This document shows, piece after piece, positions 49,095 to 59,007 of a DNA stretch of 64,000 nucleotides. The stretch comes from Pyxidicoccus sp. MSG2 (lineage in GTDB: Bacteria; Myxococcota; Myxococcia; Myxococcales; Myxococcaceae). Each line of letters opens with the position of its first letter. Position 1 is the first letter of the stretch. Position numbers and translations under genes: made by a program. The stretch lies in the NCBI RefSeq assembly GCF_026626705.1, contig NZ_JAPNKC010000001.1, forward strand, positions 6,342,001 to 6,406,000, read 5' to 3'. The notes beneath the pieces were generated by a model. That model was not told the DNA's origin and did no database searches. It was given only the letters and a program-made list of their open reading frames with translations.

Positions 49095-49811
49095 TCATTT
49101 CCGCGTGGCGATGACGGTGCTGAGTGGCGTGAAGGGCTCGGGGAGGATGCCGTCGCGCACCTCGACGGTGAAGCCCTCCGCCTCCAGCAGGGCGCGGGCT
49201 CGCGGCACCAGGAACGTCAGGTAGTACATGACGAACGGCGGCCGCCAGAGTGCGTTGCGCACGCGCATGGCCGCGTTGAAGCTCTTGGCCACCCAGAAGC
49301 CCGGGTGGAGCTTCGAGGGCGGATGTGACGTGACGAAGACGAAGCGGCCGCCGGGACGCAGCGCCCGGGCGATGCCGCGCACCAGCCGGGGCTCGTCCTC
49401 CTCGAGGATGTGGCCGAAGGCGCCGAAGCTGGTGACGACGTCGAACTCGCCGTGGAACGGGAGCTCCAGTGCGTCGCCGCGAAGGAATTCGAAGCGTGCG
49501 TCGCCGGGAGCGCCGGAGAGGCGGCGGCTGGCCTCCTCGAGCATGCCCTGGCTGAGGTCGAAGCCGACGACGCGCTCGCGGGCGAGGGGCCGGAGGAAGC
49601 GCATCGCGGCGCCGGTGCCGCAGCACACGTCGAGCGCGCTGCCGACGGTACCGGGCGGCCCGAGCTGCTCAATCGCGACCTTGAGGACGGGGTCCGGGGT
49701 GCGGAAGGGCGTGTAGTCGAACTTGGGGGCGAGCAAATCGTACCCGCGCTCGACGGAGGAGAGCGCCTGTTCGGCCAGCTCCCGGAAGGTGGGCCCTTGG
49801 CGGTGGAACAT
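49095..49811 (-). CDS. class I SAM-dependent methyltransferase
   Basis: The 238-residue protein has motif I ALDVCCGTGAAM, an acidic residue after strand 2 in VVGFDLSQGM, GDALELPF, and a post-motif FDVVTSFGAFGHI. It follows the type-11 pattern used on small molecules or lipids. ATG 49811 starts MFHRQGP; a longer form adds a low-complexity leader. It faces the start of the five-lipoprotein operon across 122 bp. The substrate is unknown. Confidence 0.88.
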   Translation of the reverse strand: MFHRQGPTFRELAEQALSSVERGYDLLAPKFDYTPFRTPDPVLKVAIEQLGPPGTVGSALDVCCGTGAAMRFLRPLARERVVGFDLSQGMLEEASRRLSGAPGDARFEFLRGDALELPFHGEFDVVTSFGAFGHILEEDEPRLVRGIARALRPGGRFVFVTSHPPSKLHPGFWVAKSFNAAMRVRNALWRPPFVMYYLTFLVPRARALLEAEGFTVEVRDGILPEPFTPLSTVIATRK

Positions 49812-49933: not shown

Positions 49934-51043
49934 ATGCGCCGTGCCGCCGCGGTCGCCTTCCTGGCGCTCCTCTCCGTGTCCTGCCGTGACGAGCGGCTCG
50001 TGCCTTCGCTGCCGCCGGGCTACCACGTGGACACGTACGCGCAGCGCTCCGCCTCGGCGGTGGACGTGCTGTGGGTGGTGGATGATTCGGGCTCCATGGC
50101 GCCGAGGCAGGAGGCGCTGGCGCGCAACTTCCAGGCGTTCATCGCGCTGTTCCGCGAGGGGCGCATCGACTTCCGGATGGGCGTGGCGACGACGGACATC
50201 TTCACGCGTCCGGGAGAGCTGGTGGGCGAGCCGCGCGTACTGGCCCCGGACACGCCGGAGCTGGAGCGGGCCTTCGGGGACAGCGTGAGGGTGGGCACGC
50301 AGGGCAGCGCGTACGAGGCGGGCCTGGAGGCGGCGAGCCGCGTGCTGGAGCGCCAGGCGCGGGAGAACGCGCCGGTGCTGGAGGCGCGCGCCGCATGTGA
50401 GTCGGGCTGTGCGTCGGAAGCCTGCCGCGAGGCATGCGCGACGGCTCACCCGGTAGCCTTCTTGCGCCCCGGGGCGTGGCTGTACCTGGCCTTCGTGACG
50501 GACGAGGACGACCGCTCGCCGCACGACGTGCGCACGTACTGGCGGATGTTCGAGCAGGCGAAGGGGATTGGGAATGATGGGACGGTGGTGGCGTCGGCCA
50601 TCATCGGAGACGTGCCGGCGAACGGGTGCGGCGCGGAGCCGGGGACGCGCTACGCGGAGTTGGTGACGCTCACCGGGGGAGAGGTGGGGAGCATCTGCGA
50701 CGCGGACTTCGCGGACACGCTGCGCACGCTGGCGACGAGCGCGGTGGGCCTGCGGCGCACGTTCGCGCTGGAGCAGGTACCGAAGGTGGACACGCTCCGG
50801 GTGCGCGTGCGCCATCCGTGTGGCACGTCACAGGAGTCACTCCAGGGTTGCGAGTCCGTGGACCGCGCGGCCTGCGAGGCGCAATCGGCGGAGGCGCTGG
50901 AGGCGGTGTGTACGCCGGTGCAGGGCGGGCCGGACGGCTGGACGTACGAGCCGGCGAGGCGGGTGGTGTTCTTCGCGGGTGGGTCCGTTCCGGGGCTCGG
51001 CACGCGGGTGGAGTTGGAGTACGTGGAGGAGGACGCGTCGTGA
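49934..51043 (+). CDS. von Willebrand A domain lipoprotein, operon gene 1 of 5
   Basis: The 369-residue precursor has lipobox SVSC at 14-17. The vWA domain (about 44-240) has a MIDAS site, DDSGS at 50-54, with the later threonine in GVATTDIFT. A Cys-rich insert (ESGCASEACREAC) lies in the middle. Such domains bind protein ligands through a metal ion. Its stop overlaps the next GTG start (GTGA). It is the first of five lipoprotein genes joined in this way, and may be the ligand-binding or adhesive part of a surface complex. Confidence 0.88.
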   Translation: MRRAAAVAFLALLSVSCRDERLVPSLPPGYHVDTYAQRSASAVDVLWVVDDSGSMAPRQEALARNFQAFIALFREGRIDFRMGVATTDIFTRPGELVGEPRVLAPDTPELERAFGDSVRVGTQGSAYEAGLEAASRVLERQARENAPVLEARAACESGCASEACREACATAHPVAFLRPGAWLYLAFVTDEDDRSPHDVRTYWRMFEQAKGIGNDGTVVASAIIGDVPANGCGAEPGTRYAELVTLTGGEVGSICDADFADTLRTLATSAVGLRRTFALEQVPKVDTLRVRVRHPCGTSQESLQGCESVDRAACEAQSAEALEAVCTPVQGGPDGWTYEPARRVVFFAGGSVPGLGTRVELEYVEEDAS

Positions 51044-52608
51044 GCCGTCGCCGCGACACGTCTCCGCTGGCGTCGTGCGCTCGCGTTCTCCACGAGTGGC
51101 TCACGCAGGCTGAGCGGCCTCATGCGAATGCGGCCCGGCCCTTGGTGTCGCGTGCCCGCCTTCTCCACAAGTTGTCCCTCCTGCTCCTCGCGCTCCTCTG
51201 CCTTCTCGGAACCGCGTGCGGTGGAGACGCGCCCGCGCGCCCCGTGCTGCCCCGCTGGGTTGCGCCGGAGCCGACGCTCGACTTCGGGCCAGTGCCCGCA
51301 CTGAACGAGCGCACGGTGACGCTGCCGCTGGTGAACGCAGGGCGCGCGTCGCTGCGAATCCTCGGCGTCACCGTGCGCGAAGCGGAGGCCCCCTTCCGCG
51401 TGGTCTCCGCGCCGCAAGAAGTCGCCGCGCAGAGCGAGGCCCCCGTGACGCTGGCCTTCGTCCCCCTACGCGAGGCGGCCTACACCGCGACGCTGGAGCT
51501 GCGCACGGACGACCCGGAGCAGGGCACGGTGGAGGTCTCACTCCGGGGAGAAGGTCGTACCGCAGCCGTCATCGAGCTGGACCCTCCGCGGCTCGACTTC
51601 GGCCGTGTTGCGGAGGGAAGCGCGGCGGTGCGGAGCTTCACCGTGCGCTCGCGAGGCAGTGCCCCTCTGGTGCTGGAGGAAGTCGGGCTCACGAGCGACA
51701 CCCCCTCCACCTTCGAGCTGGTCGGCTCGACGCGAACGCCCGCGATGCTGGACACCGGCACCGAGGCCCCCATCACCGTGCGCTACACCGCGCCCGTGGG
51801 GCCGATGTCCGAGCCCGCGAGCGGCACCCTGCGCCTGCACACCACGGACCCCGACCATCGCGAGGCCATGGTGTCGCTGCGCGGTGGAGTGAACCGCGCG
51901 CCCGTGCCTGTGATGGCTCCGCTAGAAGCCAGCGCACCGGGCCAGGAGGTGACGCTCGACGCGACGAGCTCGCAGGACCCGGACGGAGACACACCCCTCA
52001 CGTACCAGTGGGCCCTCCGCCAACGGCCCGTGGGAGCCCAGGCCGCCATTGCCCAGGCCGGAGCCGCAAGCACGGTGCTGCGGTTGGACCCGGTGATTCC
52101 AGGTGAGTACGAGGTGGAGCTGCACGTGACGGATGCGGCGGGGGCTCGGAGCCTCCGGCCCGCGACTACGCGGGTGGTGGCGGTGCCCGCGCAGCGGTTG
52201 CTGGTGGAGGTGTCCTGGAACAACGCGCTGACGGACCTGGACCTGCACGTGTTGCGCGGGACGGAAGCGGAGCCCGGCTCCGCACCGGATGACTGCCACT
52301 ACGCGAATCCGCGTCCGGACTGGGGCACTCCCGGTCCGCTGGACGACCCGGAGCTGCTGAGAGACCGGCTGACGGGCTACGGGCCGGAGGTGTTCGGCTA
52401 CGAGAGCCCCGTGTCCGGGACGTACCGCGTGGCGGTGGTGTTGGCTCGGGAGAACGGAGCCGTGGACCCGCGCAGCGAGGCCACGGTGCGGGTGTACGAC
52501 CGGGGCGTGCTCAAGGGCGAGTTCCGCCGCACGCTGGCGAAGCAGGGCGATGTGTGGACGGTGGCGGACGTGCAGTGGCCCGCGGGCCTCGTCACGGAGG
52601 TGCCGTGA
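51040..52608 (+). CDS. ASH/PKD/DUF2135-like lipoprotein, operon gene 2 of 5
   Basis: The 522-residue product begins at GTG 51040, with GGAGGAGG about 7 nt upstream and a 4-nt overlap with gene 1. The hydrophobic signal and lipobox GTAC lie only at residues 45-61, an unusually long n-region; GTG 51145 would give a normal lipoprotein signal. The mature part has two ASH-like domains (TLDFGPVP, RLDFGRVA), a PKD/REJ-like domain (RAPVPVMAPLE ... DPDGDTPLTYQW) and a C-terminal DUF2135-like module (LLVEVSWNNALTDLDLHVL). These modules act as binding or spacing parts. One-base overlap with gene 3. Confidence 0.87.
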   Translation: MSRRRDTSPLASCARVLHEWLTQAERPHANAARPLVSRARLLHKLSLLLLALLCLLGTACGGDAPARPVLPRWVAPEPTLDFGPVPALNERTVTLPLVNAGRASLRILGVTVREAEAPFRVVSAPQEVAAQSEAPVTLAFVPLREAAYTATLELRTDDPEQGTVEVSLRGEGRTAAVIELDPPRLDFGRVAEGSAAVRSFTVRSRGSAPLVLEEVGLTSDTPSTFELVGSTRTPAMLDTGTEAPITVRYTAPVGPMSEPASGTLRLHTTDPDHREAMVSLRGGVNRAPVPVMAPLEASAPGQEVTLDATSSQDPDGDTPLTYQWALRQRPVGAQAAIAQAGAASTVLRLDPVIPGEYEVELHVTDAAGARSLRPATTRVVAVPAQRLLVEVSWNNALTDLDLHVLRGTEAEPGSAPDDCHYANPRPDWGTPGPLDDPELLRDRLTGYGPEVFGYESPVSGTYRVAVVLARENGAVDPRSEATVRVYDRGVLKGEFRRTLAKQGDVWTVADVQWPAGLVTEVP

Positions 52609-54086
52609 TGGCGCGCGCTCTCGCCCGCGTCTCGTGGCTGTTCGCCCTGCTCCTCGCGGCCTGTTCCTCCGACCCGGCGAAGCCCGTGCCGGATGCGGGC
52701 CCGGAGCCCACGGCCTGCGAGCGCCGCGACGACTGCGAGGGAGGTCAGGTCTGCGGGATGCAGGGCTTCTGCGGCCCCTGCGAGTCCAGTGGCCAGTGCC
52801 GGCTGAAGGAGCGCTGCGAAGCGGACGCGCGGGTCTGCACCCTCCGCGAGGGCTGGGGCACCGACTGCACGGCCAGCGCGGACTGCGAGCTCGGGAGGTG
52901 GTGCCGTCAGGGACTCTGTCGCCAGCGAGCGGATGTGGTCCTCTGTCCATCGGGCCAGCGGGACGAGTGCCCGACAGGCCAGCGCTGCAACACGGCGGGC
53001 CTCGTGTGTGAAGAGGACCTGGGCTGCGTGGAGGACGCGGACTGCGGCCCGGAGGAGCGCTGCAACACGGGGCTGCACGCCTGCGTGCCCCGCTGCACCG
53101 AGGCTACAGCGTCCCGAATCTGTGCGTCCGAAGAGCGCTGCGCGGAAGGCCGGTGCGTCCAGTGCGAGGCGGATGGGGAGTGTGGCCCGGGCCTCCTCTG
53201 TGACGCCGCGGGACGCTGCACTGCGACACCGCGTTGCTACTCGGACCGGGACTGCATGGTGCCCCTCCAGTGCCACGTGCCGAGCGGAGCGTGCCTGCCC
53301 GAGCCCCCGCCCTGCACCTCGGATGACGGATGCGCGGCCGACCGGCGCTGTGAAATAGGAACCGGCACTTGCGTGCCAAGGGCCTGCGAGCCGGACACAT
53401 TGGAGCCCAACGACACCACCGTCGCTGCATACCCGGTGCGAGCGAGCCGATACCTCGGTCTCACGCTCTGTCCGGACGACGTGGACCACTTCTCCATCAC
53501 GCTGGAGCGAGGTGACCAGCTCGGAGTGAACGTGGAGGCGGAGGCCTTCGCGGAGCCGGCGTTCTCCACCACGCTCCAGGACGCGAGCGGACGCGTGCTC
53601 GCGTCGGGGCGCTTCCTGGCGACACACGTCGCGGCGGTGCCCGGCACGTACACGGTGCGCATCGCGGCGCGGGGCAGTGAGCCGCGAGCATACGACGTGG
53701 GCTTCTTCCTCTCGCGGGGAACACCGTGTGACGACGACTCCCACGAGCCCAATGACACACCCGCCACGGCGACAGCCCTGACGGCAGGCCTGCCGTTGGA
53801 AGGGATGCTGTGTCCGCAAGACCAGGACCACTTCCGTCTCACCGTGCCGGAGGGGCAGGGCGTGCGGGTGTCACTGTCGAACTACGTCGCCGCCGCCGGC
53901 CTGCTGCGCCTGTGCCTGCTCGGAGAAGAGGGCACCCAGGCGCCAGGCTGCTCCACCGAAGCCAACGGGGCGACAGTCTCGCTGCCCGCCTCCATCGCTG
54001 GAGGAAGGACGCTCACCGCGCGAATCACCGGAGAGGCTTCGCGCACCGCGAATGGCTACACCCTCCAAGCGGAGCTGCTGCCATGA
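52608..54086 (+). CDS. Cys-rich lipoprotein with two PPC domains, operon gene 3 of 5
   Basis: The 492-residue precursor has lipobox LAAC at 16-19. About 240 Cys-rich residues follow, in units such as CTASADCELGRWC and CEADGECGPGLLC. Two pre-peptidase C-terminal (PPC) domains are then marked by LEPNDTTVAAYPV and HEPNDTPATATAL. PPC domains often help secretion or bind surfaces. The Cys-rich units resemble those in TraA but there is no MYXO-CTERM tail. Start and stop overlap the neighbours (TGATG and ATGA). The many disulfides would need an oxidative folding system such as the thioredoxin-TPR lipoprotein. Confidence 0.88.
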   Translation: MARALARVSWLFALLLAACSSDPAKPVPDAGPEPTACERRDDCEGGQVCGMQGFCGPCESSGQCRLKERCEADARVCTLREGWGTDCTASADCELGRWCRQGLCRQRADVVLCPSGQRDECPTGQRCNTAGLVCEEDLGCVEDADCGPEERCNTGLHACVPRCTEATASRICASEERCAEGRCVQCEADGECGPGLLCDAAGRCTATPRCYSDRDCMVPLQCHVPSGACLPEPPPCTSDDGCAADRRCEIGTGTCVPRACEPDTLEPNDTTVAAYPVRASRYLGLTLCPDDVDHFSITLERGDQLGVNVEAEAFAEPAFSTTLQDASGRVLASGRFLATHVAAVPGTYTVRIAARGSEPRAYDVGFFLSRGTPCDDDSHEPNDTPATATALTAGLPLEGMLCPQDQDHFRLTVPEGQGVRVSLSNYVAAAGLLRLCLLGEEGTQAPGCSTEANGATVSLPASIAGGRTLTARITGEASRTANGYTLQAELLP

Positions 54087-57000
54087 GCCGTGGCCACCGC
54101 ATCCGGTGCCATGTCACCACCAGGGTGGGGCACCTGCGTCTGGCGGTGCTGTGCCTCCTGCTCGCCGCCTGTGGTGACAGCTCGCATCCGCCGGGAGTCA
54201 CCCCAGACGCCGGCCTCATCGACGCGGGAGCCGGAGCCGAAGATGCGGGCCCGGACGCGGGCTCCCAGTCAGACGCGGGCCCAGCACCCACGCTCCTGTC
54301 GCTCCTGCCAGTGCGGGGCGAAAGTGGAGGCGGCGCCTGGGTGCGACTGACGGGCAGCGGCTTCGTCCAGGGCGTGGCCGCGACTCCCACGGAAGCGGCC
54401 CGTCGCACGATGCTCAAGCTGGGCGAGCGTGAGGTGCGCGACTTCCAGCTCATTGACGACACCTCGCTCGACCTCCGCACGCCGCCGGGGGCTCCCGGGC
54501 CCGCGAGCCTCACACTGGAGAACCCGCGAGGCACGGCCCGCTGCGAAGCCTGCTTCACGTACTTCGAGTCCTTCGACCTGCGAGACCTCTCTCCGGCGGA
54601 AGGAGCGCTCTCCGGTGGCAACACGGTGACACTGGTGGGCACGGGCTTCCCCACGGAACTCCAGGTCCTCTTCGGGGGCACGGCGAGCCCCGCCGTCACA
54701 CGGGTCTCCTCCACCGAATTGCGAGTCGTCGTCCCCCGAGCCCTGAGCGAGGGGCCCGTGGACGTGAGGGTCCACGGGCAGGGAAGTGGAGGCGTGCTGC
54801 GGCGCGCGTATCGCTACATTCACGACCCGCGAATCACGGACCTTGCTCCGCTCACCGGCCCTCGGTCCGGAGGCACGCGGGTGGTGCTCACGGGGAAGGG
54901 CTTCGAGGGCACGACCTCCGTCCTCTTCGGAAGCACACCCGCTCCGCTGTTCCAGGTGGACTCACCGTCCCAGCTCACGGCGACCACGCCACCGGGCCCG
55001 AGCGCGGGCGCCCTGGACGTGACAGTCCTCACCCCGCGAGGCACCTGGAAGGTACGCAACGGCTTCACCTACGAGGAGGCCACCGCGGGCACCCTCACCC
55101 TGCGCGGAGTCTTCCCCCACGTCGGCACGAGGGCGGACGGCACGGTGACGCTCACGGGGAGCGGACTCGACACGCCCGGGCTCGCGGTGTCCTTCGGAGG
55201 CCAGTCCGTCCCGCTCGTCACGGCCACGTCGACCACGGCCACCGTCACCGTACCCGCGCAGTCCTCACTGCCACGCAGCGTCACCGTGAGCGCCATGTCC
55301 GGCACCGAGAGCGCCAGCCTCTCGAATGGCTACACCTTCCGGCTCTCGCTCTCCCAGGTGACGCCCGACACGGGGCCCACCGCAGGCGGGACGCAGGTCA
55401 CGGTGGAAGGAACGTTCATTCCACCGGACGCGGTGGCGCGGGTGGGGACGCTCGAAGCCACGGCGGCCTCGACACCCACGCAGGAGCAACTGCGCTTCAC
55501 GACACCACCAGGAGGCGCGGGCGCACAGTCCCTCCATGTCTTCTCCGCGAGTGACCCGGAGAACGAAGTCCTCCTACCAGCCACCTTCATCTACGAAGCG
55601 CCGCTCCTGCTCGCCCAGGTGGAGCCCTCCCGAGGCGCCATCGCCGGAGGCACCCGCGTGACGGTGAGAGGCGCGGGCCTGGGTGAAGGCACCACCGTTA
55701 CCTTCGGAGGCGAGCCCGCGACGGATGTGCAGGTGGTGGACGGCCACACGCTGACCTGTCGCACGCCGTCCTCGCGAGTGCAGGCCCCGGTGGAGGTGTC
55801 CATCACGCGAGGAACCACCCGCGCCGCGCTGTCTGAGGTCTTCACGTACTTCGACCCGAGGGGCCCAGGAGGACTCTCCGGTGGCCCGCTCACGGGGACG
55901 CTGAACGTCACGGTGCTCGACACCTCGTCCGGTGCCTACGGTCAGCCCGTCGCGGGAGCACGGGTGATGCTCGGCACGGACGCGGCGACACCGCTCCAGG
56001 GCGTCACGGATGCGAGGGGGCAGCTCACGCTCTCCGACACACGGATGGTGGGCGTACAGGTCGCCACGGTCTTCAAGGAGGGCTACGACGCGGTGACGGT
56101 GGCGGGCATCCGCGCGGAGAACCTGACGGTGTTCCTGCGCAAGCTCACGAGCGACGGCAACCCGGGCAATCCCCCCGAGCTTCCTCCTGCCGCCATCACC
56201 GGCCGGGTGCGAGGCTTCAAGCCACCGAGGCCCCTCGGTCCGAATGAGGTGTTGGAGGCCCGCATCTTCGTCGCGCAGCCGAGCCCCACCTCCGGCCCGC
56301 CCTTCGCGGGGCCGGGAGACCGGCGCGCGGACACCTGGCGCGTGCGAGAGGACGGAGGCGCATTCCAGGTCCACAGCCAGCCCGGCCTGCGCGCGGTGTA
56401 CGCGGTGCTGGGCGTGCTGAAGGACGAGGTGGACTTCGAGCCCTACCTGCTCGGAGTGCGGCGCGGCATCGCGGCCTCCTCCACGCGAGTCGCGCAAGGG
56501 CAGGACGTGGTGCTCGACATGCACCTGGACGTCACCGCGTCGCTCACGGTGGACGGCCCCATCAGCGTGTCGGGGCAGCCCGCGCTGCACCAGGTGTACG
56601 TCTGGCTGGACCTGGGCGCGGAGGGACTGGTGCCGCACCCGCACAACTGGGGCACGGGGACACGCTTCTTCTCCATCATCGAAGGCCCGGGGCCTCGGCT
56701 CACGTTCCCCGGCCTGCCACGGCTGGACGGAGCGAGCCTCCTGTTCCTCGACCTGCTGCGAGGCACCACCACGTATCCGCAGAGCCTGCTCTACCACCGC
56801 CAGCCGGGAGACCCCGCGCAGGGCATGACGCTCGGGCCCCTGCTACCGCTACCGACCTTCGCCGCTCCCCCGTCGGGCCAGTGCTTCACCGGCGAGGTGG
56901 CGTGGAGCTCGGCGCCGTCGTCCACGGAGCCAGACCTGCAGCGGCTCACCCTCACCGCGCTGGGCGAGGGAAGCGGCATCCGCTGGACGGCCATCCTCCC

Positions 57001-57202
57001 GGCGGGAGAGACCCACGTGACGCTGCCAGCCCCCGCGCTGGAGTTGCTCCGCGCGGGACTGTCCGAGGGCACGCGTCTGCGCGCGGACCTGTCCATGGCG
57101 CGAGTGCCGCGCTTCGAGTACGCGCAGTGGACGTACGACACCCTCTCGCCCGCGACGTGGACCGCCTACGTGCTGAGCCGCTCGGAGGTCTTCGACCCGT
57201 GA
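54083..57202 (+). CDS. lipoprotein with six IPT/TIG domains, operon gene 4 of 5
   Basis: The 1,039-residue precursor has lipobox LAAC at about 27-30. Six Ig-like IPT/TIG units follow, each opening with a Pro-Gly turn pattern such as SPAEGALSGGNTVTLVGTGF, LAPLTGPRSGGTRVVLTG, and VEPSRGAIAGGTRVTVRG. A carboxypeptidase-regulatory-like domain (PVAGARVMLGTDA ... GVTDARGQLTL) and a C-terminal region of about 350 residues with no known family complete it. The repeats form a rod-like surface structure. It is linked by ATGA and GTGA overlaps on both sides. It is the largest member and may be the scaffold of the proposed assembly. Confidence 0.87.
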   Translation: MSRGHRIRCHVTTRVGHLRLAVLCLLLAACGDSSHPPGVTPDAGLIDAGAGAEDAGPDAGSQSDAGPAPTLLSLLPVRGESGGGAWVRLTGSGFVQGVAATPTEAARRTMLKLGEREVRDFQLIDDTSLDLRTPPGAPGPASLTLENPRGTARCEACFTYFESFDLRDLSPAEGALSGGNTVTLVGTGFPTELQVLFGGTASPAVTRVSSTELRVVVPRALSEGPVDVRVHGQGSGGVLRRAYRYIHDPRITDLAPLTGPRSGGTRVVLTGKGFEGTTSVLFGSTPAPLFQVDSPSQLTATTPPGPSAGALDVTVLTPRGTWKVRNGFTYEEATAGTLTLRGVFPHVGTRADGTVTLTGSGLDTPGLAVSFGGQSVPLVTATSTTATVTVPAQSSLPRSVTVSAMSGTESASLSNGYTFRLSLSQVTPDTGPTAGGTQVTVEGTFIPPDAVARVGTLEATAASTPTQEQLRFTTPPGGAGAQSLHVFSASDPENEVLLPATFIYEAPLLLAQVEPSRGAIAGGTRVTVRGAGLGEGTTVTFGGEPATDVQVVDGHTLTCRTPSSRVQAPVEVSITRGTTRAALSEVFTYFDPRGPGGLSGGPLTGTLNVTVLDTSSGAYGQPVAGARVMLGTDAATPLQGVTDARGQLTLSDTRMVGVQVATVFKEGYDAVTVAGIRAENLTVFLRKLTSDGNPGNPPELPPAAITGRVRGFKPPRPLGPNEVLEARIFVAQPSPTSGPPFAGPGDRRADTWRVREDGGAFQVHSQPGLRAVYAVLGVLKDEVDFEPYLLGVRRGIAASSTRVAQGQDVVLDMHLDVTASLTVDGPISVSGQPALHQVYVWLDLGAEGLVPHPHNWGTGTRFFSIIEGPGPRLTFPGLPRLDGASLLFLDLLRGTTTYPQSLLYHRQPGDPAQGMTLGPLLPLPTFAAPPSGQCFTGEVAWSSAPSSTEPDLQRLTLTALGEGSGIRWTAILPAGETHVTLPAPALELLRAGLSEGTRLRADLSMARVPRFEYAQWTYDTLSPATWTAYVLSRSEVFDP

Positions 57203-58329
57203 ACAACCGTCGCCGTTCATGGCCCGCCGCGCTGCTGCTGCTCGTGCTCGCCGCCTGTCACGAGGATGCGCTGGAACCCGGCACGACCTGCCGCGCGGAC
57301 GCTGACTGTGGCACGCCCACGGAAGCGTACCGCTGCGACACGCAGGCCCACGTCTGTCGCTGCCGCACGGACACGGCCTGCGGCCCGAGCGAGACCTGCA
57401 ACGCGGCGGGCTTCTGCCAGGACCGCGCGGGCTGCGAGTCGAACGCGGACTGCGGTGATGCCTCGCTCTTCTGCGACACGGGCACCGGGACCTGCCTCAC
57501 CCGAGGCCGCTGCACCTCGGACCTGCACTGCCCGCTGGGCGAGGTCTGCGACGTCTCGCGCACCACCTGCGTGTCCGGCTGCCGGAGCGAAGGCGACTGT
57601 CCGGGCACGGCCTGCCGCTGCGGCGACGCCCCCTGTACCTGCGACGCCACCACGCCCGAGGGCCGCGCCGCCTGCGCGCTGGGCGTCTGCGACGCGACCT
57701 TCTGCGCGGAAGCCACGGACTGTGCCTTCGGCGAGCGCTGCGGCACCACCACCCACAGCTGCGACAGCGACTTCGACCCGACGCGCCGCCCCTACTGCGC
57801 GAGCTGCACCTACGGAGGCGGCCTCCAGGTCTGCGGTCGCGGCGCGAACTTCTGCCTGCGCGAGGCCTCGAGTCCGGGCACCGCCTTCTGCGGCGTGGAC
57901 TGCTCGCAGGGGCAGGGCTGTCCCCACGGCTACCAGTGCGCGGACGTGGTGGTGGCCGCGAGCCGTGCGCGCTGCCGCTCGGATGCGGAGTGCGCGCCGT
58001 CGCCTTCGCTCCCGTGTCGCGAGGACCCGGACTGCGGACACGGCGGTCGCTGCGTGAAGGCCCCGGGCCAGGACACGGGCGCATGCGCGGGCCGCTGTGC
58101 CATCGACGAGGGCGACGTGGAGGGCTTCTGCACCTGTCAGCAGGACGCGGACTGCGTGCAGGACGCATGCAGCCAGGGCGCGTGCACGGTGAGCCGCCGC
58201 TCCTGCACGGGGGATGCGGACTGCCGCCCCATCCGCTGCGTGGACCCTGGAGGCGTGGGTGGCTGCCTCGTGGGACAGAACTGCGCGCCCGAAGAGGGGC
58301 TGACCTGCGCGGAGGTCGCACCCCGCTAA
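57199..58329 (+). CDS. Cys-rich lipoprotein, operon gene 5 of 5
   Basis: The 376-residue product starts at GTG (GTGA overlap) with a lipobox LAAC at 17-20. The whole mature part is Cys-rich, with units such as CRADADCGTPTEAYRC, CTSDLHCPLGEVC and CTGDADCRPIRC; about one residue in nine is Cys. It belongs to the same general type as the Cys-rich half of gene 3. No enzyme motif is visible. It closes the operon; the next gene starts 135 bp later with its own ribosome site. Confidence 0.85.
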   Translation: MNNRRRSWPAALLLLVLAACHEDALEPGTTCRADADCGTPTEAYRCDTQAHVCRCRTDTACGPSETCNAAGFCQDRAGCESNADCGDASLFCDTGTGTCLTRGRCTSDLHCPLGEVCDVSRTTCVSGCRSEGDCPGTACRCGDAPCTCDATTPEGRAACALGVCDATFCAEATDCAFGERCGTTTHSCDSDFDPTRRPYCASCTYGGGLQVCGRGANFCLREASSPGTAFCGVDCSQGQGCPHGYQCADVVVAASRARCRSDAECAPSPSLPCREDPDCGHGGRCVKAPGQDTGACAGRCAIDEGDVEGFCTCQQDADCVQDACSQGACTVSRRSCTGDADCRPIRCVDPGGVGGCLVGQNCAPEEGLTCAEVAPR

Positions 58330-58464
58330 CCCCGCGTGCTCCCGGGCATTTTCGATGTAGGTCCAGGTGGCGCCCGCCCGGGGAAATGGCGGGGCCATGG
58401 GCATTGAATGAACCGCGGGGACCCCCGTCAGAAGGTGCAAGCAGGACGACGGAGGTTGAACGAC

Positions 58465-59007
58465 ATGGCTCTCAAGACTGGTATCGCGTCCCTGGTTCTC
58501 GGCACCCTTCTCTTCGGCTCCACGGCGGCTCTGGCGGAAGACGGCAACGTGCGTGACTGGGCCAACCAGGAGGCCTCGCGGCGGACGAACGGCGGCGACA
58601 ACAACTACCGCGATGACCGTCGCAACGACCGCAACGACGACCGCCGCAATGACCGCTACGACGACCGCAACCATGGTGGCGGCAACGGCTACGTCGAGGT
58701 CCACGTCCACGGCAGCGCATGCAACCACGGCCCGGCGCCGCTGCCCCCTCCGCGGGCCCGCGGCCGCTACGAGCTGCAGACGGTGAACCGCTACGTCGAC
58801 GGCCGCAACGACCGCGTGTGGGTCCCCGAGGTCTGCAAGGAGCGCTACACCCGGCGCGGGCACGTCACCAAGTGCACGGGCGGCTTCTACGAGAACCGCT
58901 GGGTCCCCGGCCACTACGAGGCCGTGCAGGAGTGGGTCTGGGTGTCCTACGGAAATGACGGCGGCTGGCGCAACAACCGCGCCCACGCGGCCAGCTACTA
59001 CCCGTAG
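58465..59007 (+). CDS. secreted Asn/Asp/Arg-rich protein
   Basis: The 180-residue precursor has a clear signal peptide ending ALA at 24. A low-complexity charged region of Asp/Arg/Asn repeats (YRDDRRNDRNDDRRNDR) follows, then a domain with WVPEVCKERYTRRGHVTKC and RWVPGHYEAVQEWVWV, which recalls the YxWxxGxW motif of small secreted proteins. Two Cys are spaced to form a disulfide. GGAGG precedes the ATG. Function is unknown; the charged region may bind metal ions or polysaccharide. Confidence 0.8.
   Translation: MALKTGIASLVLGTLLFGSTAALAEDGNVRDWANQEASRRTNGGDNNYRDDRRNDRNDDRRNDRYDDRNHGGGNGYVEVHVHGSACNHGPAPLPPPRARGRYELQTVNRYVDGRNDRVWVPEVCKERYTRRGHVTKCTGGFYENRWVPGHYEAVQEWVWVSYGNDGGWRNNRAHAASYYP

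Follow-up and report, generated by a model that had tools for sequence, protein, structure and literature searches.

Five adjacent lipoprotein genes, here called A to E, almost certainly form one joint functional unit in Pyxidicoccus sp. MSG2, and judging from their sequences our best guess is that this unit is a surface contact or adhesion assembly. They occupy positions 49934-58329 of a 64,000-nucleotide window, the whole stretch of DNA that was analyzed (RefSeq assembly GCF_026626705.1, contig NZ_JAPNKC010000001.1, positions 6,342,001 to 6,406,000), and begin and end exactly at the start codon (ATG) of A and the stop codon (TAA) of E (Table 1). A joint job is almost certain because the gene order is kept across much of the phylum and loss affects only the block as a whole. 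To the fuller reading, in which a co-translated unit builds a lipid-anchored outer-membrane assembly, most likely at the surface, with a von Willebrand A (vWA) head that binds an outside ligand, we give roughly an even chance. The domain types are all known, and A-E are placed among vWA surface lipoproteins. We found no description of the five-part unit in the open-access literature searched.

Coupling, order, and loss of the five genes

Each gene overlaps the next. The shared bases are GTGA between A and B (51040-51043), TGATG between B and C (52606-52610), ATGA between C and D (54083-54086), and GTGA between D and E (57199-57202). All five window translations carry lipoprotein signals, and the lipobox Cys is invariant in the 20-23 orthologues per protein in every family. 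An earlier note, made from the sequence alone, had described five translationally coupled lipoprotein genes with no enzyme or transporter among them; its coordinates and all four overlaps proved exact, and neither Pfam nor NCBIfam finds an enzyme or transporter domain within A-E. Chance can be excluded as the source of this arrangement, since only 6 of the 46 other genes called in the window have lipoprotein-like products and the five-gene order is kept across ten families. Ratios of nonsynonymous to synonymous substitution rates against close relatives are 0.15-0.37 for all five genes. Their gene trees have 8-14 of 16 splits in common, a moderate agreement that is consistent with joint inheritance and falls short of proof. 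Scans for promoter and terminator consensus sequences gave nothing exceeding shuffled sequences.

Table 1. Positions in the window of the five genes, of selected parts of their products, and of the flanking genes
Feature	Position	Strand	Description
Left neighbor	49095..49811	-	methyltransferase-like; outside the unit
Gene A	49934..51043	+	lipoprotein with vWA domain, 369 aa
MIDAS motif DDSGS of A (residues 50-54)	50081..50095	+	intact in 16 of 20 orthologues
Four-Cys insert of A (residues 143-177)	50360..50464	+	position of the Bd0875 cap; only in f1, f7, and f8 orthologues
Gene B	51040..52608	+	lipoprotein; two ASH/HYDIN Ig-like domains, PKD, C-terminal beta domain
Gene C	52608..54086	+	lipoprotein; ~43 Cys, then two PPC-like beta domains
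Gene D	54083..57202	+	lipoprotein rod, 1039 aa; Asp/Ala/Gly-rich tether, six TIG, three more beta-sandwiches
C-terminal part of D (residues 592-1039)	55856..57199	+	three beta-sandwiches; AlphaFold2 mean predicted local distance difference test (pLDDT) score 87.8
Gene E	57199..58329	+	lipoprotein; 55 Cys, nearly all invariant
Right neighbor	58456..59007	+	small secreted Arg/Asp-rich protein; outside the unit; right edge of the precise loss

The earlier note had proposed subunits of one stoichiometric complex, perhaps for adhesion, prey contact, or secretion, a view that a gene order scrambled in related myxobacteria would contradict. Instead, the order A-B-C-D-E, with all genes co-directional, can be read in 25 fetched loci of ten families (L002-L006, L045, L047-L052, L054-L056, L059-L064, L084, L092-L094). 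Two families lie beyond the order, one in the same class (f10) and one elsewhere in the phylum (f11). A contig scan and an order-wide search showed A and D orthologues about 3 kb apart on shared contigs. In the most distant loci each protein is 31-40% identical to its window counterpart, with the architecture unchanged. In the orthologous loci 49 of 83 junctions overlap by 1-4 bases, a count from a simple codon-bias gene caller whose starts are approximate, so that several large junction gaps represent wrong starts.

Presence of the block is all-or-none. By hand tally of the search tables, 145 genomes of the order include 54 with C, and precisely these 54 also have full-length D; B occurs outside this set only in the fragmentary G008. 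The apparent lack of A or E in three genomes (G050, G129, G089) is explained by a fragmentary assembly or by a contig that breaks off within the block. In five genomes without the block the two flanking genes are directly adjacent, so exactly five genes are missing at this site; four of these genomes belong to the window's genus (G120, G101, G102, G118) and one to another genus (G059). Deeper in the family, a relative of the right neighbor follows E (in L006, and in L061 with two genes in between), which makes loss likelier than recent insertion. All through the family the right-neighbor gene, whose protein has no Pfam family, stays next to the cassette site. The block persists in some genomes of only ~3 Mb (G140, G141, G142, G144) and is therefore no luxury of large genomes.

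Deeper in the phylum the cassette appears as separate sub-units. A and E are adjacent in at least 14 loci (L086-L091, L096-L098, L104, L106-L109), with the 4-base overlap also in L096, L097, and L104; B and C are adjacent in nine (L123-L129, L131, L136); and D stands alone in others (L118-L122, L130, L132, L134, L135). These deep matches are homologues and at most putative orthologues. A hand tally over 39 genomes of families f12-f31 gives D in 14, C in 14, and both in 13 (Fisher test, 2e-8). By family the two co-occur in 8 of 9 cases (Fisher test, 7e-5), a count that removes relatedness only partly. Because D and C are unlinked in these families, their joint presence is not due to position. 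Kept order, precise loss of the whole block, and co-occurrence of unlinked homologues together bear out the claim that the genes are one unit.

The same split arrangement bears on another explanation, in which the genes are co-regulated and their products act separately, for example as lipoproteins of the matrix or of outer-membrane vesicles, with the order kept by selection for co-expression. In its favor, A-E, B-C, and D can reside at separate loci, and contact between the five proteins is only presumed. However, the all-or-none presence, the co-occurrence when unlinked, and the overlaps retained at 30-40% identity all argue against it, and we consider separate action rather unlikely.

Most simply, the split loci suggest that B-C and D were inserted between the members of an A-E pair to give the cassette. 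If so, a previously undescribed surface apparatus as old as the myxobacterial phylum could be represented here. Its A-E core, a vWA protein with a metal-ion-dependent adhesion site (MIDAS) plus a disulfide rod, would exist throughout the phylum. The window's class and one further lineage would have upgraded it, with B-C and D between, to a five-lipoprotein contact device that was lost as a block from much of Myxococcus and relatives and was thus probably missed in the model organism. We advance this history tentatively, at slightly less than even confidence. What is known of contact biology in myxobacteria comes almost wholly from M. xanthus, and since the block is absent from the searched ~9-10 Mb genomes of the genus, it probably would not have been found there. 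One genus contains both natural carriers and naturally occurring precise deletions of the block, whose five genes are a defined target for study of a conserved unit of several surface lipoproteins. The split A-E, B-C, and D loci offer a readable case of a surface assembly built from older sub-operons.

Domains of the five proteins

The vWA domain of A matches Pfam VWA_2 below the Pfam cut-off (E = 0.031), but its DxSxS motif is nonetheless present. The NCBIfam profile for MIDAS adhesins, NF052240, matches 20 of 20 A orthologues (best E = 1.2e-18), all far below the curated cut-off; window A reaches 40 bits (E = 2.7e-10) against 700. In its features A resembles this family, with a lipobox, a vWA domain, and DxSxS, although the motif is degenerate in 4 of 20 orthologues. 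The CglD profile (NF033765) matches 18 of 20 orthologues, again far below its curated cut-off, and window A has 33.9 bits over residues 35-209 only versus 400 bits over ~1124 positions. Both cut-offs were tested and neither is reached, so A is not assigned to NF052240 or CglD. A search of Protein Data Bank (PDB) sequences with the A profile and a plasmid search with A gave no match.

The Bdellovibrio bacteriovorus protein Bd0875, an NF052240 member of 378 aa, is like A in its lipobox, vWA domain, DxSxS motif, and terminal regions outside the vWA domain, and its cap, residues 143-176, is an insert at the position of the A insert (PMC11003981). In contrast to A, no four-gene set of lipoprotein partners is described for Bd0875, and unlike Bd0875 some A orthologues have neither cap nor MIDAS motif.

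Two Myxococcus xanthus proteins, CglD and functionally CglB, are likewise vWA lipoproteins tied to surface adhesion and gliding, which raises the question of whether A is a gliding-motility accessory related to them. The CglD profile does match most A orthologues, and the Glt complex holds CglB, a surface protein with a vWA domain (PMC13104615). However, A falls far short of the CglD cut-off and has a third of the CglD length (the profile is ~1100 positions long), and CglB works with a Glt complex that spans the envelope. The window genome has separate CglD-like genes (~1020-1070 aa), and block-less genomes of the genus still have CglD-like genes as well. A gliding accessory is thus improbable. 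To our knowledge, neither CglD nor CglB is encoded with B-E. The further CglD-like vWA proteins of the window genome number three, with 1020-1070 aa, at G000:C1:1387313-1388227, 919341-920156, and 8154157-8155014.

B has two HYDIN/ASH domains and a PKD domain by Pfam. DUF2135 (PF09906) matches weakly at the C-terminus of 4 of 20 orthologues (best E = 0.0033), and no match is found in window B at 0.1. The start of B may be either GTG 51040 or GTG 51148, the latter being likelier. The upstream GTG leaves an unusually long stretch of 43 residues ahead of the signal peptide (lipobox Cys codon, 51217-51219); GTG 51148 lies after an in-frame insertion that is confined to close relatives. In more distant relatives the overlapping GTG opens the signal peptide directly. 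The 5' end of B in close relatives (window 51040-51172) has imperfect in-frame tandem repeats of ~30 codons that contain '..RARVLHKL..', and these have grown to several units in L064 (6656-7055).

C has 43 Cys in a pattern that is near-invariant among orthologues. PPC (PF04151) matches its C-terminus weakly in the window, with 15.7 bits versus a gathering score of 25.9 (E = 0.029), and in 11 of 21 orthologues with a best E of 2.4e-8. Of the modules that the earlier note had listed, vWA with MIDAS, ASH, PKD, the Cys-rich parts, and six TIG domains are retained; PPC is weak in the window and stronger in relatives, and the DUF2135-like end is reduced to the weak matches above.

D contains exactly six TIG stretches (E = 1.9e-58) that reach the IPT/TIG (PF01833) gathering score, and TIG domains are kept in 23 of 23 orthologues. 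In the model of its C-terminal part, the first sandwich is transthyretin-like (Z = 7.4, 1.6 Å to 5aq0), the other two domains have Z scores of ~6, which signify only a beta-sandwich, and whole-length Foldseek matches are generic Ig-like strings. Together with the six TIG domains, these three make D a string of about nine beta-sandwiches. A second, diverged D lies directly behind E in G144 (L050 12254-15487).

The Cys pattern of E is nearly invariant among orthologues, and its AlphaFold2 model (mean pLDDT 81) consists of small beta hairpins. E has no Pfam family, its model has no PDB match with E below 0.001, and a PDB sequence search with its profile gave no match. The Myxo_Cys_RPT model also matches E orthologues. 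The outer-membrane exchange receptor TraA resembles E in its Cys-rich repeats, but the TraA profile matches only 1 of 21 E orthologues (E = 0.022). TraA is sorted through MYXO-CTERM, whereas E is a lipoprotein, and no hydrophobic segment of the MYXO-CTERM kind is found at the C-terminal end of any of A-E. Several Myxococcaceae genomes have a second full-length E paralogue (L111, L112, L113, L114, and also L099) in a conserved operon that differs from the cassette, together with a CarD-like protein, an M54 (archaemetzincin-type) peptidase, and a PMT-type glycosyltransferase. E has a tandem duplicate in one f4 genome (G037:C81:16068-18268), and f11 genomes have two E-like genes behind D.

Predicted membrane location and the case for adhesion

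In M. xanthus, lipoproteins with Lys at position +2 are sorted to the inner membrane and those with Ala at +7 to the matrix (PMC3222651). Lys +2 is absent from all five predicted mature N-termini in the window. By these rules A, C, D, and E would belong in the outer membrane, B has a matrix-like Ala +7, and from these N-termini we infer an outer-membrane location for A-E.

In the proposed mechanism, the five lipoproteins would be co-translated and come together at the outer membrane, most likely facing the outside of the cell rather than the periplasm. A and E, neighbors throughout the phylum, would form the core, the former a vWA/MIDAS lipoprotein and the latter a lipoprotein rich in disulfides. 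D, with its beta-sandwiches on a flexible acidic tether, and B-C, with Ig/PKD and Cys-rich/PPC parts, may serve as stalk and scaffold and position the vWA head to bind another cell, matrix, or surface. Binding by A would be metal-dependent in most lineages. The Porphyromonas gingivalis fimbria Mfa1-5 offers a likeness of layout only; it is a five-protein surface operon with the vWA protein Mfa5 at the tip (PMC7835359). Mfa1-5 is a polymerized fimbria, and no pilin or usher is recognizable in A-E.

Several observations weigh against an adhesion assembly. Conserved gene order is evidence of functional linkage and not of physical contact, and in G140 (L057, G140:C7; a 2.9 Mb genome) gene A is inverted and divergent from B-C-D. 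The MIDAS motif is degenerate in four A orthologues (from f2, f4, and f6), so metal-dependent adhesion is not a universal function of A. Lys +2, an inner-membrane signal in M. xanthus, occurs in 4 of 22 E orthologues and in one C orthologue. The block is absent from ~90 of the 145 genomes of the order, and none of the searched ~9-10 Mb genomes in the window's genus has it. That genus is known for gliding, fruiting, and predation, and absence from so many genomes means that the block is not required for any of these as such. The G140 locus, where E is on another contig, is the only rearranged cassette seen.

The main rival is a structural scaffold of the envelope or matrix that cross-bridges the outer membrane, peptidoglycan, or matrix and has no outside ligand, the vWA domain serving internal protein-protein assembly. 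Disulfide-rich and beta-sandwich rods predominate among the products, the four A orthologues without a MIDAS motif have lost it while all five genes remain, and B has the matrix-type Ala +7 of the M. xanthus rule (PMC3222651). However, the other 16 of 20 orthologues keep the motif intact, as do most A-E pairs from other parts of the phylum in which it is readable. We therefore regard the scaffold as possible but appreciably less probable than a surface assembly whose vWA head binds outside the cell.

The secretion ATPase and its neighbors

The earlier note had also suggested secretion among the possible roles, for which we find no support. A gene for a T2SSE-type ATPase is convergent to E in seven loci of f2, f4, f6, f8, and f10, as might be expected if the unit assisted prey killing by a Tad or type II/IV secretion apparatus. 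However, this gene is never co-directional with the unit, and in the window genome its orthologue is 2.2 Mb from the cassette, near gyrA and the same 251-aa gene. No pilin, secretin, platform, or ATPase is encoded among A-E, and a secretion accessory is very improbable. We rejected the ATPase as a functional partner because it stayed by its old neighbors while the five genes moved; its position next to E is a relic of the ancestral cassette position. No obvious secretion cluster surrounds this lone ATPase, which keeps gyrA and a membrane protein of 251-256 aa as neighbors over several families (L084 8083-9774; L147 8635-10446).

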